DNA from: a virus
Virus record (IMG/VR): IMGVR_UViG_3300014903_000160
Location: 1-33,218 of that record
Strand: one strand, 5' to 3'
DNA length: 33,218 nucleotides
Shown here: positions 1,280 through 29,008 of the stretch, piece after piece
Position numbering within the stretch: the first letter of the stretch is position 1
Layout: each line of letters begins with the position of its first letter
Notes under the pieces: generated by a model
What the model saw: only the letters and a program-made list of their open reading frames with translations
What the model was told of the DNA's origin: nothing
The model's database searches: none
Made by a program: the position numbers and the translations under genes

Positions 1280-2367
1280 TAATCTTGAACCTTTCCTCCT
1301 CCAGAACCATACTTGCCTACAGTATATCCGGGAGCCATGTAGTGTTTAGTAACCCAGTCAATTCCTTTGAGCTTAATCATGTATCTGACTTGCTCACACT
1401 TACTCATTGTTTCACCATACTTCGTTCTCTGTCCGGGTCTATGTTCCTTTAGAGGTTCAATGTTAGTCCCTTCAAAAGTTGTCTTTCCAGCATGGCACAT
1501 CGTTCGACACTTCCAGCAATCCTTTGGTCTGATTCTTGGAAGTATCTGTGGCTCATCCGTATCCCTGATTTCCTCAAATCTTTTTCTCAGAATTTCTTCT
1601 GTTTGTTTCATGTCGGAATCTTGATAGTGGACAGTAAATGGACCACCAGTGTTGATGAAGTAGATTGTCATTAGGAATGTGTGAGCTTCTGGATATAGCC
1701 TTTTACAAGCATAGTGGTACATTCGCAACTGCGGATTATTGAATAAATTATTCTGATTATATTCTTTACCAGATGCCCAGTCTTTTCTCATTCCTGTTTT
1801 CCAGTCTACAACCTCATAGACACCATCACCGAGATCACTAACTAAGTCAATAGTCCCTTTTAGTGCTAAGTGTCCAGATAAATTATACTCTGGATATTCG
1901 TACTTTGCCCAATCTTCTTCGATCTCAAAGTCAAAATGAGGTTCCGCATCAACAACATCTCGCTGTCTCGGATCATACATGCCATCCTTATACTTTAGAG
2001 CTTTCCATGCCCAGCTTAGACAATCCTCAAAGTCTCTATCCCTCCAAGCGTTTTTGCCGGTATGGTAGTTGAAGAGTTGGGTGTAATGCTCGTATACCCT
2101 AGCACCGATTGAGTTTAGATATTCCGGCTCATAATTATCAGTAAAAACTTCTCCAATATCTTCGTCATCAATTACAGCTTTGCCTTCTTGTGCTGCCTTT
2201 TTGCATAGTGCTGTAATTTCTAGAATTTTATGAGTAATAGTGCCCTTGTCAGCTTTTTTACCACCAAGTCCACGCAAACCAAGCGTATATTCGGTATAGA
2301 ACTGCATGGGACAAGTCCTATGAGTATTAAAGGAACTACTTCTGAAATATACGATTGGGATACCCAT
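1279..2367 (-). CDS. Cas4/RecB-like PD-(D/E)XK nuclease with probable Fe-S cluster
   Basis: The 362-residue protein has the RecB-nuclease layout. A motif GTITHKILE (residues 42-50) supplies the early His. The catalytic core is GTIDLV (D174) followed by VVDWKTG (D188, K190), and then a QLRMYHYA helix like the QxxxY motif. C19 and the cluster C284, C287, C291 are spaced like the four cysteines that hold a 4Fe-4S cluster in Cas4 and AddB nucleases. Residues 300-362 form an extra tail ending in a Gly-rich segment. It probably processes DNA ends during replication or recombination, since it sits between the dNMP kinase and DnaE genes with a 1-nt gap and a 1-nt overlap. There is no CRISPR array nearby, so a role in spacer acquisition is not suggested. 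The family call is secure; the precise substrate is not. Confidence 0.88.
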   Translation of the reverse strand: MGIPIVYFRSSSFNTHRTCPMQFYTEYTLGLRGLGGKKADKGTITHKILEITALCKKAAQEGKAVIDDEDIGEVFTDNYEPEYLNSIGARVYEHYTQLFNYHTGKNAWRDRDFEDCLSWAWKALKYKDGMYDPRQRDVVDAEPHFDFEIEEDWAKYEYPEYNLSGHLALKGTIDLVSDLGDGVYEVVDWKTGMRKDWASGKEYNQNNLFNNPQLRMYHYACKRLYPEAHTFLMTIYFINTGGPFTVHYQDSDMKQTEEILRKRFEEIRDTDEPQILPRIRPKDCWKCRTMCHAGKTTFEGTNIEPLKEHRPGQRTKYGETMSKCEQVRYMIKLKGIDWVTKHYMAPGYTVGKYGSGGGKVQD

Positions 2368-9895: not shown

Positions 9896-10117
9896 TTAAG
9901 TATCCTCATCTATAAAGTGTTTTTTAACATCCAAGCATTTCTTACAGTATACCTTAGATGTCCTGATTTCGACTGCATCATTTGAAAGTTTTAGACTAAA
10001 ACCTTTCGCATTTTTCCTATACCTTCCCTCTATCTCTACATCGGGTATGATAACCGTTACCTTTTGACCATTCTCTAGCATCCTATGACAATTATCACAC
10101 TTTCTAACTTCGTACAT
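9896..10117 (-). CDS. Small zinc-finger-like protein
   Basis: The 73-residue protein has KCDNCHRML at the N-terminus and VYCKKCLDVKKH near the C-terminus, giving a CxxC...CxxC zinc-binding pair separated by about 45 residues. The segment between is basic and could form a beta-rich finger core. The start ATG is preceded by GTGGAGGACGT, a strong Shine-Dalgarno sequence, and overlaps the end of the HNH gene by 14 nt. It may be a nucleic-acid binding or regulatory peptide of the replication operon. There is no further basis for a function. Confidence 0.75.
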   Translation of the reverse strand: MYEVRKCDNCHRMLENGQKVTVIIPDVEIEGRYRKNAKGFSLKLSNDAVEIRTSKVYCKKCLDVKKHFIDEDT

Positions 10118-10643
10118 ACGTCCTCCACTCTTCGGGGATGTCTACTGAAATAAAGGAAATAAAATTGTTTGGGCTTGGCTCTACAGGTTTTTTTAAAAGT
10201 CTCATACCTGCTTGCTCAAGTGTCTTGCTGCCCTTCTTTGTATTACATTTAGAACAAGCAATAACGACATTATCCCAAGTATGTGCATCGTCTTTATTTG
10301 AAAAAGATGACCTTGGCTTGATATGGTCTATTGTAGTTTTGTTCATAGCTAGTTTGGTATTACAGTATTGGCAAGTAGAATTATCTCTGATTGCTACATT
10401 ATACCTTTTTACGGGAACGCTTTTTCTTTTCTTAATATATCTAGGGGTTACGGCAACTGCTGGAATATAAAATTCCTGTCCGCCACCAGAAGTAACCATA
10501 TCGTCTAGATAATGTTCAATAACACGAACCCCTTCTCCGGGCATTTCGTTACCGATTATCTCCAAACATAAAGCCCGCTTCCAACTTATTATAGTCAGCG
10601 GTGTGTAATCTTGATTCAATATTAAGCAAGGTTTGTGGTTCAT
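10104..10643 (-). CDS. HNH endonuclease
   Basis: The 179-residue protein has the HNH core CQYCNTKLAMNKTTIDHIKP, with a later WDNVVIACSKCNTKKGS. Two CxxC pairs would bind the structural zinc, and the DH of TIDH plus the Asn in WDNVV form the metal site. It would cut or nick double-stranded DNA. Such genes are frequent in phages as homing enzymes or packaging nucleases, but the first position in the replication operon is unusual for packaging. The frame is open upstream to 10670, but those codons would be the arm of a terminator hairpin; ATG 10643 with AGGGGCTAAA is therefore used. The gene is the first after the terminator at 10654-10691. Confidence 0.88.
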   Translation of the reverse strand: MNHKPCLILNQDYTPLTIISWKRALCLEIIGNEMPGEGVRVIEHYLDDMVTSGGGQEFYIPAVAVTPRYIKKRKSVPVKRYNVAIRDNSTCQYCNTKLAMNKTTIDHIKPRSSFSNKDDAHTWDNVVIACSKCNTKKGSKTLEQAGMRLLKKPVEPSPNNFISFISVDIPEEWRTYVRS

Positions 10644-10653
10644 TTTAGCCCCT

Positions 10654-10691
10654 AAAAAAAAGAGCCACACAAAGATAACTTTGTATAGCTC
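10654..10691 (-). terminator. Strong rho-independent terminator with 13-bp stem
   Basis: On the minus strand GAGCTATACAAAG pairs with CTTTGTGTGGCTC across a TTAT loop (13 bp, two of them G-U), followed by eight U. It ends the membrane-protein unit (13251-10722) about 30 nt beyond the last gene. The U run reaches to 11 nt before the HNH start codon, so any promoter for the replication operon must be upstream of or within the hairpin. Confidence 0.92.
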
Positions 10692-26501: not shown

Positions 26502-26554
26502 TTTTGATCCTTCTTTTTTATTAAAATATCTTAAATCCATGTAAATCCTCCAAG

Positions 26555-26627
26555 AGCCACCTATGGGAATCGAACCCATAACCTGTTGATTACAAATCAA
26601 CTGCTCTGCCAATTGAGCTAAAGTGGC
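26555..26627 (-). tRNA. tRNA-Thr (anticodon UGU)
   Basis: The 73-nt cloverleaf reads with acceptor GCCACTT paired to AGGTGGC (one G-U), D arm GCTC...GAGC, anticodon stem GTTGA/TCAAC with loop TTTGTAA giving anticodon TGT, and T arm ATGGG/CCCAT with a TTCGATT loop. CCA is not encoded. It decodes ACA Thr codons. It follows the tmRNA by about 20 nt on the same strand and precedes the cytidylyltransferase. No other tRNA was seen in the window. Confidence 0.95.
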
Positions 26628-26646: not shown

Positions 26647-26958
26647 TAGGGTACTGCCGAACCCCGTCTTATTTACCAGAATAGAGCCTTTCTACTTTTG
26701 AAACCTGAAATGTTAATACACGACAAATTCATTAGTATCACCCCCTTCGATTCGAGTGCAATGACTCGGATTTAAAGTAAAGTAAGTAAAACGCCCGTTT
26801 GGGTTATAAGGACGAGCAACTCCCCATGCAGACTAAGCTGCGAGTGCGTAATTCTCTACGTCACTTAAAAAATTTAGTCAGCTTTTAACGAGGCCAACTG
26901 ACCAACCTCGGCATGAGATATGAAACTTCATACAACCTGTCGAATCCAATTCACCCCC
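26647..26958 (-). ncRNA. ssrA: tmRNA (transfer-messenger RNA), 3' end non-canonical
   Basis: On the minus strand the 5' end GGGGGTGAATTGGATTCGAC, then CATGCCGAGG...TTGGCCTCGTTAAAAGC (pseudoknot 1 as in E. coli) and a short tag frame ending AATTACGCACTCGCAGCTTAG show tmRNA. The tag reads about SDVENYALAA then TAG, ending like the E. coli ANDENYALAA tag. It would rescue ribosomes stalled on broken mRNA. The 3' part has AGGCTCTATTCTGG and then GACGGGGTTCGG, where the T arm is expected, but the following bases (CAGTACCCTAG) do not complete a normal T stem and only partly pair with the 5' acceptor strand. The 3' end at 26647 is approximate. The RNA is about 312 nt, shorter than usual (about 350). 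It begins 4 nt after an HNH gene. Confidence 0.85.
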
Positions 26959-26961
26959 GTG

Positions 26962-27438
26962 TTAGATAAACCAACCTATCATTCTTTTAAAGAGTGGAGG
27001 TGGAGGCATCGAAGCCTCGTCCAGCTTTGCATCCGTAACATTCTTTTTACATGCTTCTTCTTTTGATAGAACGCCTGAATGAATTTCTCTATGGCAGTTT
27101 GCACATAGCATCAGGCATTTTTCAAGTTCTAAGATAATCCTTTCCTTGGAGAAACTACTCATCTTGCTAACCTCAAACTCTTTTTCACCTGTTTTGAAGT
27201 GGTGAAATTCTATAGCACCCAAGCAACGGTTATAACCACAAACAGTACACTCATACTTGCCGTAATATTCTGTGATAATATCGGTCAGTCTATCACTTGC
27301 ATGTTGGTCATAGCATTTTTTACACTTTGACTTTAGCTTTTGATTGCCGTTCTTGTCGTACCCGTTGCTATAAAAGTTTGCTTTTGTAAACTCAAATGAT
27401 TGTTTACATCCGGTACAAGATTTTAATTCCATTTCCAT
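26962..27438 (-). CDS. HNH endonuclease beside the tmRNA
   Basis: The 158-residue protein has an N-terminal CxxC finger (SCTGCKQSFEF and KSKCKKCYDQH), then ECTVCGYNRCLGAIEFHHF and LEKCLMLCANCHREIHSG. The HH...H and Cys pairs make the beta-beta-alpha-metal nuclease core of HNH enzymes. It would nick or cut double-stranded DNA, and such phage genes are often homing elements. The stop lies 4 nt before the tmRNA 5' end, so the two could be co-transcribed. ATG 27438 follows AGAAAGGAAAGC. A TATAAT box lies 29 nt further upstream. Confidence 0.87.
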   Translation of the reverse strand: MEMELKSCTGCKQSFEFTKANFYSNGYDKNGNQKLKSKCKKCYDQHASDRLTDIITEYYGKYECTVCGYNRCLGAIEFHHFKTGEKEFEVSKMSSFSKERIILELEKCLMLCANCHREIHSGVLSKEEACKKNVTDAKLDEASMPPPPLFKRMIGWFI

Positions 27439-27491: not shown

Positions 27492-27779
27492 TTACCTAAA
27501 AAGCTGAAAAAATGGAGGAGGACAGTATCTTGGCTGAGAAGGGCCAATTTGAAAATTAAATTTACCGACTCTAAGATTCAACCCTCTAAATGGCTGCACC
27601 CTATGCTTCGGGCATTGACATCTCACTGGATGACGATGAGGTGTAACTCTCGATGGATTATTGCGTTGCCATTGTCTTTGATATCTTTGTTGAACCTTCC
27701 AAGGACTTTGAGCCGATGCTCCTGTTGCACAAGCTAGAACAGCTACTACAACCAATGTTTTTAACATGTTTTTAATCAT
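27492..27779 (-). CDS. Small exported basic protein
   Basis: The 95-residue protein has a clear Sec signal peptide, MIKNMLKTLVVVAVLACATG followed by ASAQ, with likely cleavage after ASA. The mature part is very basic with Arg, Gln and His (QQRYQRQWQRNNPSRV, PHRHPVRCQCPKHRV) and has three Cys, ending FFQLFR. It has no known fold. The ATG overlaps the DUF1501 stop in an ATGA junction, so it is co-translated with it. It may act in the periplasm, on the cell wall or outer membrane. Secreted small proteins are uncommon in phage operons. Confidence 0.8.
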   Translation of the reverse strand: MIKNMLKTLVVVAVLACATGASAQSPWKVQQRYQRQWQRNNPSRVTPHRHPVRCQCPKHRVQPFRGLNLRVGKFNFQIGPSQPRYCPPPFFQLFR

Positions 27780-29008
27780 GATATCTCCTTTAAAATATTC
27801 TTCGATTCTTCCTTAACAATATAATGAGGACGACCATCCGTAGCCGTATATCTCGTTTTTTTCTTCATCCCTAAATGGTCAAAAATAGTCCAAGCTAAAT
27901 CTTCTGGGGTTGTTCTACCGTCTGGTTCGTAATCGTCAGCAGTTGCATTTGATTGACCAATGGTTCTACCCATATCATAGCTTCCACAACTAATCATTAG
28001 AGGTGCGAGCTTTCCAAAGTGATCGCGACCCTGATTTGCATTTACCTTTGGAGTTCTTCCAAACTCAGAAGTAACCACAAGCATAACTCTTTCGTACATA
28101 CCTCTTGCTTCCAATGTATCCATAATCTTAGCAAGATAAGTATCGAGGACAACCTGTTGATTACCAAGGCCATTTGCAATATTTGTGTGCATATCCCAAC
28201 CACCAAGATTTAAAGTTACAAACTTTGATCCAGCTTCTAAAAGCCTGATAGCAGTAAGTGCGTCTGAGCCAAAAGAATTTTCTTTAAAAGAATCATAGTC
28301 TTTATCATTCTCAACTCTAAATGCTTCCGATGCTTTACCGAGAATAATATCAACAGACTGCTCACGAAGAGCCGACCAATCTTTTGCTAATTGCTGATCC
28401 CTTGCACTAAACTGTTTATCAATAACATCTAATGCAAACAATCTTTTTCTAAACGCATCGCTTGATCCAAGAAGTTGCAAGTCTCTACGACCTTCTCTAG
28501 TTGCATCAAAGCCCATGTATTTACCACCAAGCCAAGCAGCATCGTCATGTGCAAATCCTCCGATTTTTACATAATGAGGTAGTCCATCATTGGTATTAGG
28601 CCCATGATATCTGCTCATCATACTTCCATGACTAGGCCACTTGGAACTTGTTCCTGCACCAAAGTTTGCTTCACCCGTTACAACCCAGTGAACAGAACTA
28701 GCATGGTTTTGATCTCTATGACCAAATGCTCTAGGGATAACGATTTTATCTGTTCGTTTAGCAAGTTCTTTAAAAAGACCTCCAAGCTCGATGCCAGCAA
28801 CATTTGTTTTTATTGCACCTGTAACTGATCTTCTATCAGCAGGAGCAAGAGGAATAGGGTTGAAAGTCTCGATGTGTGAAGCACCACCATTGAGAAAGAC
28901 AAACAACACAGCAGTATCGTCTACGTTTGCTGGATCAGCATAACTAGCCTCAACATTTCCAACTACAAAAGTACCAGCACCAATCTTTAAAAAGTCTCTT
29001 CTTTGCAT
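27776..29008 (-). CDS. DUF1501-family protein with Tat signal
   Basis: The 410-residue protein opens with a twin-arginine signal, MQRRDFLKIGAGTFVVG, then FVFLNGGASHIETFNP, a DUF1501/alkaline-phosphatase-superfamily start. Later come VLDTYLAKIMDTLEARG, VMLVVTSEFGRTPKVN and GRDHFGKLAPLMISCG, which are diagnostic of this family (DSGAxH-like and TSEFGRTP motifs). Members are exported and abundant in Planctomycetota and Verrucomicrobiota; their biochemical function is not established, though they share a sulfatase-like fold. Here the gene follows a membrane peptide gene by 1 nt and precedes a Sec-exported peptide, forming an exported cassette. A phage copy suggests host-envelope or polysaccharide interaction (inference). 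Length is near the family norm of about 430. Confidence 0.9.
   Translation of the reverse strand: MQRRDFLKIGAGTFVVGNVEASYADPANVDDTAVLFVFLNGGASHIETFNPIPLAPADRRSVTGAIKTNVAGIELGGLFKELAKRTDKIVIPRAFGHRDQNHASSVHWVVTGEANFGAGTSSKWPSHGSMMSRYHGPNTNDGLPHYVKIGGFAHDDAAWLGGKYMGFDATREGRRDLQLLGSSDAFRKRLFALDVIDKQFSARDQQLAKDWSALREQSVDIILGKASEAFRVENDKDYDSFKENSFGSDALTAIRLLEAGSKFVTLNLGGWDMHTNIANGLGNQQVVLDTYLAKIMDTLEARGMYERVMLVVTSEFGRTPKVNANQGRDHFGKLAPLMISCGSYDMGRTIGQSNATADDYEPDGRTTPEDLAWTIFDHLGMKKKTRYTATDGRPHYIVKEESKNILKEIS

Follow-up and report, generated by a model that had tools for sequence, protein, structure and literature searches.

What does a phage gain from a ribosome-rescue RNA whose 3' end seems to be missing, and is that end missing at all? 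The locus considered here lies in a window of 33,218 bases that makes up an entire viral record of IMG/VR, itself a 33-kb fragment. The initial annotation recognized a phage-encoded tmRNA at 26647-26958, and the 5' domain (26958-26936) and pseudoknot PK1 confirm that this is what the locus encodes. Past the tag, it could not complete a T arm after GACGGGGTTCGG, found an Ala-acceptor end with a G3-U70 pair unclear, and offered a real variant, a permuted or decayed gene, or an insertion scar as possible explanations. Our analysis places the real feature at about 26784-27054, so that the 3' end had been looked for on the wrong flank. A fully paired acceptor end lies upstream of the coding piece, and the tmRNA, judged from its sequence, is real and apparently intact rather than decayed.

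The gene content of the window is that of a marine-type T4-like phage. It includes a UvsX-like recombinase, a DnaB-like helicase, a primase, ribonucleotide reductase subunits and thymidylate synthase, a set as found in T4-like phages. Among isolated phages, the large subunit of ribonucleotide reductase is nearest to those of Pelagibacter phage Mosig (57%) and Synechococcus phages; in the set compared, the nearest ribonucleotide reductases belong to HTVC008M and Mosig, both of which have permuted tmRNAs. The window also holds an unusual phage gene for a DUF1501 protein (27776-29008, minus strand; Pfam 1.7e-56, without a PHROG match) and, besides the HNH endonuclease ORF discussed below, a second HNH endonuclease gene (10104-10670, minus strand). 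A homologue of the latter in the related phage L002 is found directly upstream of tRNA-Thr and the tmRNA (tblastx, 50.6% over 156 amino acids).

Covariance-model matches

The Rfam model of permuted tmRNAs, RF04321 (tmRNA_permuted), which merges the alpha, beta and cyano lineages (PMC11915505), detects the window tmRNA at 27054-26833 on the minus strand with 76 bits against a cut-off of 47 (E 4.6e-13). Permutation had been one option on the initial list, and this match and the swapped order of the pieces bear it out. An Infernal match with a clean end and a normal T arm had been named as evidence against a degenerate 3' end, and in substance this is what was obtained: model positions 1-213 align end to end and the 5-bp T stem is complete, with only the T loop one nucleotide short. 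The beta_tmRNA model (RF01850) aligns over its full length (1-331, ending at 26783) with 56.5 bits, below its cut-off of 84. No window match to alpha_tmRNA (RF01849) was found at the cut-off of 50, and the window T loop reads UUCGAU against GGCRGUA in the consensus of that model; the standard one-piece model (RF00023) has no match in the window either. Since the window passes the general permuted model and no lineage model, it is regarded as a member of the permuted tmRNAs and is not filed in any lineage. ARAGORN, the other check proposed at the outset, missed the tmRNA and reported only the neighboring tRNA-Thr(UGU).

Organization of the permuted gene

There is little doubt that the feature is a phage-encoded, circularly permuted (two-piece) tmRNA gene, presumably read as one minus-strand precursor in the order acceptor piece, spacer, coding piece. 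Table 1 lists its parts, and the layout of the gene, its pairings, their covariation and the tag frame are all directly observed. Along the minus strand, the acceptor piece consists of GCAUG (27054-27050), CUG-GAC, the T arm, CACCUCC and A73. CCA is not encoded after A73, where the next bases are CTC. The coding piece begins at G1 with GGGGGUGAAUUGGAUUCGACAGG, and its first seven bases form seven perfect pairs with the acceptor piece, including G3-U70, the alanine determinant of tRNA-Ala and tmRNA. Two short helices of P2 further join the pieces. Between them, mid-P2 pairs poorly in the window, with mismatches in both the RF04321 and beta_tmRNA alignments, and P2 was not recovered by a simple co-fold of the pieces. 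Scans for promoters and terminators at the tmRNA locus found none.

Table 1. Features of the permuted tmRNA locus and its neighbors (window coordinates)
Feature	Position	Strand	Basis and remarks
HNH endonuclease ORF, 158 aa	26962..27438	-	phrog_2255 2.7e-28, residues 2-128; stop TAA 26964-26962
Acceptor piece	26995..27054	-	RF04321 match and alignment with eight permuted relatives; A73 = 26995; 5' end inferred from model start
T arm GAGGC-UUCGAU-GCCUC	27003..27018	-	5-bp stem, 6-nt loop; covariation in relatives
Acceptor stem 3' strand CACCUCC	26996..27002	-	Pairs with GGGGGUG (26958-26952); G3-U70 present
Spacer, 36 nt	26959..26994	-	Presumably removed in maturation; position as in permuted form of PMC11915505
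Coding piece	26784..26958	-	GGGGGUG 5' end (G1 = 26958), D-loop region, PK1, tag, PK2, GUUUU (T-run); 3' end ~26784-26792, inferred
Proximal P2 strand CAG	26937..26939	-	Pairs with acceptor-piece CUG (27024-27022); covarying
Distal P2 strand CAUGC	26911..26915	-	Pairs with acceptor-piece GCAUG (27054-27050); covarying
Pseudoknot PK1	26877..26910	-	Stems CGAGG/CCTCG and GTCAG/CTGAC; both covary in relatives
Tag frame GAC GTA GAG AAT TAC GCA CTC GCA GCT TAG	26833..26862	-	(A)DVENYALAA; resume-site alignment with relatives
Pseudoknot PK2, after tag	26793..26825	-	Stem GCTCG/CGGGC; covaries in relatives
tRNA-Thr(UGU) gene	26554..26627	-	ARAGORN and Rfam; neighbor, outside tmRNA

The tag had been read as SDVENYALAA followed by a stop. 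Its ALAA-type end and its TAG stop at 26833 stand, while its start is moved by the alignment of the resume site, in which UAAGU|GAC of the window lies over UAACU|GCU and UAAUU|GCA of relatives. Starting from GAC, the frame has exactly nine codons (DVENYALAA), so the earlier reading began one codon too early. The window thus resumes on an Asp codon, where eight of eight relatives have Ala codons (GCN).

Relatives and covariation

Searching isolated phages with the tmRNA by blastn returned only short, weak matches. Permuted tmRNAs were instead collected by pattern scans of viral contigs, the first and narrow pattern retrieving L002 only. This locus comes from the nearest phage relative (66% amino acid identity over 301 residues of a shared gene), and its permuted tmRNA scores 100.4 bits. 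The set used for covariation comprised nine loci, namely the window and L002, L041, L245, L246, L248, L249, L251 and L261. All eight relatives share the architecture of the window, with coding pieces of 167-170 nt against 171 in the window and tags of nine codons throughout. ARAGORN itself calls permuted tmRNAs in L245, L248 and L251, with the tags AEPCLALAA, AEPCFALAA and ADESLALAA, respectively. The L245 contig also bears an Rfam manA RNA motif (1452-1629, minus strand).

Covariation was counted on hand-set helices because MAFFT misaligned the acceptor 5' ends. In seven such helices, including both that join the pieces, every cell is paired in nine of nine sequences, mostly through compensatory changes, many of them double. 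The proximal inter-piece helix occurs as CTG/CAG, CAG/CTG, GGA/TCC and ACG/CGT, and the distal one as GCATG/CATGC, GATTG/CAATC, ACATG/CATGT, GCATG/CATGT and GCCTG/CAGGT. The T stem is paired in 45 of 45 cells, equalled by none of 5000 shuffles, and the observed scores of the proximal and distal helices are reached by 0 and 7 of 5000 random re-pairings, respectively; since the choice of helices was made by eye on the very sequences counted, which favors high pairing, and descent alone can beat shuffles, weight is placed on the independent double changes rather than on these counts.

The collected loci also vary in form. The permuted tmRNAs of L246 (1743-1931) and L261 (10487-10673, minus strand) have a spacer of just 5 nt (A73-CTTAC-G1), and both place an alpha-type GGCAGUA T loop on a coding body common to relatives with a UUCGAUU loop. 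That T loop was considered as a novelty and set aside; it is the loop of the alpha_tmRNA model and is present in the tmRNA of phage Melnitz. An apparent 1.3-kb spacer in L167 proved spurious, the second core lacking a proper D region. In two related (sister) phages, the tmRNAs are one-piece, at L208:25-294 (minus strand) and L253:5687-5954; both have the tag AKTTSFALAA and a PK1 nearly identical to that of the permuted group.

The six-nucleotide T loop

The T loop of the window has six nucleotides (UUCGAU) closed by C53-G61, whereas the RF04321 consensus is a 5-bp stem with a 7-nt loop. Scanning with the 6-nt pattern collected 78 permuted phage loci, with a Y53-R61 closing pair and standard pairs at all five positions of the stem. 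When genes were sampled by their 5' core only, the short loop was present in 3 of 31 permuted genes and 0 of about 33 one-piece genes. A scan of 84,980 species genomes of bacteria and archaea found the pattern in 21, mostly from Mesorhizobium, Aliihoeflea and other alphaproteobacteria. Three genomes of the Mesorhizobium group (G011, G017 and G019) each have a single RF04321 match, and the pattern lies within it. Because dozens of phage tmRNAs share the loop, as does the sole permuted tmRNA found in each of these three genomes, it is taken as a tolerated variant and not as a sign of decay. On these sequences, the short loop is a natural variant that would be compatible with service as a cell's only permuted tmRNA. 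No paper on a 6-nt T loop was found in the literature searched, which is not proof of novelty.

An HNH reading frame across the acceptor piece

Upstream of the coding piece, the tmRNA overlaps an HNH endonuclease ORF. Residue 129 of the HNH protein starts at 27054, exactly where the tmRNA match starts, and the last 30 codons are made up of the acceptor piece and the spacer. The ORF thus reads through the entire acceptor piece and stops four bases short of G1. Back-translated peptides found no relatives of it in viral contigs, while tblastn against isolated phages matched 347 records. Phage tRNA genes with a free-standing HNH gene next to them are already known, and the window ORF belongs to the same HNH family. 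In PAK_P4, an annotated HNH gene overlaps the start of tRNA-Lys by 39 nt; in SA001, the overlap is with tRNA-Ala and amounts to 10 nt; and a tblastn match in a Vibrio phage runs into tRNA-Tyr. Other HNH homologues in cultured phages show no tRNA overlap. The window differs from PAK_P4 and SA001 in that its target is the acceptor piece of a tmRNA, all of which is covered.

Nuclease genes also occupy the spacers of related loci. An HNH ORF lies between the acceptor and coding pieces in L041 (4160-4960; spacer of 618 nt) and L249 (4778-5550, minus strand; 588 nt). One identical spacer-nuclease arrangement of 577 nt is shared by L016, L033 and L078, and the 458-nt spacer of L340 and L364 holds a nuclease of another family. 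The RF04321 match spans the insert in L249, L340 and L364. The nuclease ORF stops inside the coding piece in L041, L249, L259 and L016 and before G1 in L340 and L364. With near-identical coding pieces, L259 (minus strand, at a contig end, its spacer holding an HNH gene) and L261 (5-nt spacer) look like a filled and an empty site. In the Melnitz tmRNA (L380, Melnitz 45950-46450), a spacer of about 150 nt holds an open frame that, by eye, apparently continues into the coding piece. No description of nuclease genes in permuted-tmRNA spacers was found in open-access text. A speculative idea, which we consider rather unlikely, is that permuted phage tmRNAs double as landing sites for nuclease genes and as their regulators: maturation would sever the ORF from its stop, and the non-stop message would be policed by the co-transcribed tmRNA, in the manner of ArfA-type feedback.

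Comparison with known two-piece tmRNAs

Two-piece tmRNAs of phages are already known, and the window adds another. The publication of the Melnitz tmRNA also surveyed 53 two-piece phage tmRNAs (PMC9004378). Like the window, HTVC008M, Mosig EXVC030M and Melnitz EXVC044M are marine T4-like (Kyanoviridae) phages with the permuted order (RF04321, 90.6-113.4 bits). Theirs pass alpha_tmRNA (67.6-106.6 bits), whereas the window passes no lineage model and is set apart by its 6-nt T loop and the HNH ORF over the acceptor piece. The betaproteobacterial two-piece tmRNA (RF01850) has the same succession of acceptor piece, spacer and coding piece with PK1, tag and one pseudoknot after the tag; compared with it, the window lies below the cut-off, is without a terminal hairpin and has a shorter T loop. 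The related phage L002 (IMGVR_UViG_3300032081_000953) has a near-identical T arm with the 6-nt loop and a near-identical GGGGGTGAATTGGATTCGACAGG core, and likewise an adjoining tRNA-Thr(UGU). Unlike the window, L002 encodes CCA, passes beta_tmRNA (97.5 bits), has another PK1 sequence and the tag ANASFAMAA, and has its tRNA-Thr upstream rather than downstream.

Alternative explanations

The reading closest to the initial annotation is a one-piece tmRNA whose 3' end, near 26667-26640, is variant or degenerate, possibly a fossil left by a tandem duplication from which the permuted form arose. The stretch GACGGGGTTCG does resemble the first half of a T arm and sits about where a one-piece gene would end, and the sister phages L208 and L253 have one-piece genes with a near-identical PK1. 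Against this, no acceptor strand follows GACGGGGTTCG, and the permuted acceptor piece is complete, which by itself refutes a functional end downstream. The sequence at 26668-26657 that had been taken for the start of the T arm follows a 19-codon ORF, lies more than 100 nt beyond PK2 and is outside the tmRNA gene. Aligned locally to 148 T-arm sequences of collected tmRNAs, it scores 21 at best, a value reached by 99 of 200 dinucleotide shuffles (mean 21.0), and its fold is ordinary (z -0.51). With a likeness at chance level, and with relatives in which the gene stops after PK2 and unrelated genes come next, a downstream T arm was rejected even as a fossil, and we give this explanation practically no credence. 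The GGCAGT...ACTGCC hairpin said to span the junction is present (26658-26633); it lies after the same ORF, outside the gene. That ORF (MNLSCINISGFKSRKALFW, 26673-26732, minus strand) is placed between the tmRNA and tRNA-Thr and has a strong Shine-Dalgarno-like AAGGGGGTGAT.

An old permuted tmRNA could also have lost its function and be in the course of being overwritten by the HNH ORF. The T loop one nucleotide short, the poor mid-P2 pairing, the ORF running through the acceptor piece and a score of 76 bits against 82-137 for most relatives would all fit such a pseudogene. We nevertheless find it very unlikely, given that the acceptor, T, PK1 and PK2 stems and the joining helices are intact, with compensations specific to the window such as GCATG/CATGC, that the tag frame is open and ends in ALAA, and that the Mesorhizobium-group genomes led us to reject the short loop as a mark of decay. 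A further proposal concerns the origin of the gene and does not conflict with a permuted tmRNA: the tRNA-like domain and the coding body may come from different tmRNAs brought together by phage recombination. The tRNA-like domain of the window is nearest to that of L002, yet over 47 nt its PK1 shares 91% identity with the L208/L245 types, and near-identical coding bodies bear three T-arm types (UUCGAUU, GGCAGUA of the alpha_tmRNA loop type, and the 6-nt loop). The sequences are short and strongly constrained, and the PK1 likeness across forms was partly selected by the search pattern, so that a mosaic origin is a possibility to be entertained with some reserve. More broadly, the one-piece sisters and mixed T-arm types, in a set whose PK1 was selected by pattern, suggest either that phages have swapped parts of their tmRNAs or that the form of the gene has changed.

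Proposed maturation and implications

Established knowledge of two-piece tmRNAs suggests how the permuted tmRNA of the window would be transcribed, processed, charged and used for tagging. Host tRNA-processing enzymes would excise the spacer, with RNase P cutting before G1 and 3' trimming and CCA addition following A73. The two resulting RNAs would stay joined through the acceptor stem and P2. SmpB and alanyl-tRNA synthetase of the host, the latter through G3-U70, would then prepare the RNA for the rescue of stalled ribosomes, in which (A)DVENYALAA would be added and the peptide marked for proteolysis. A search of 11 related records revealed no gene for SmpB, which suggests that the protein of the host is used.

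A phage tmRNA that seemed broken thus turns out to be apparently intact. Since both ARAGORN and reading by eye miss permuted genes with atypical T loops, phage tmRNAs are probably under-counted. The related loci indicate that the two-piece tmRNAs of phages vary in the type of their T loop and harbor nuclease genes in the spacer, where an RNA made of two pieces can accommodate the insertion of genes. Spacer nucleases may therefore offer a testable model for the sharing of transcripts between homing nucleases and RNA genes.
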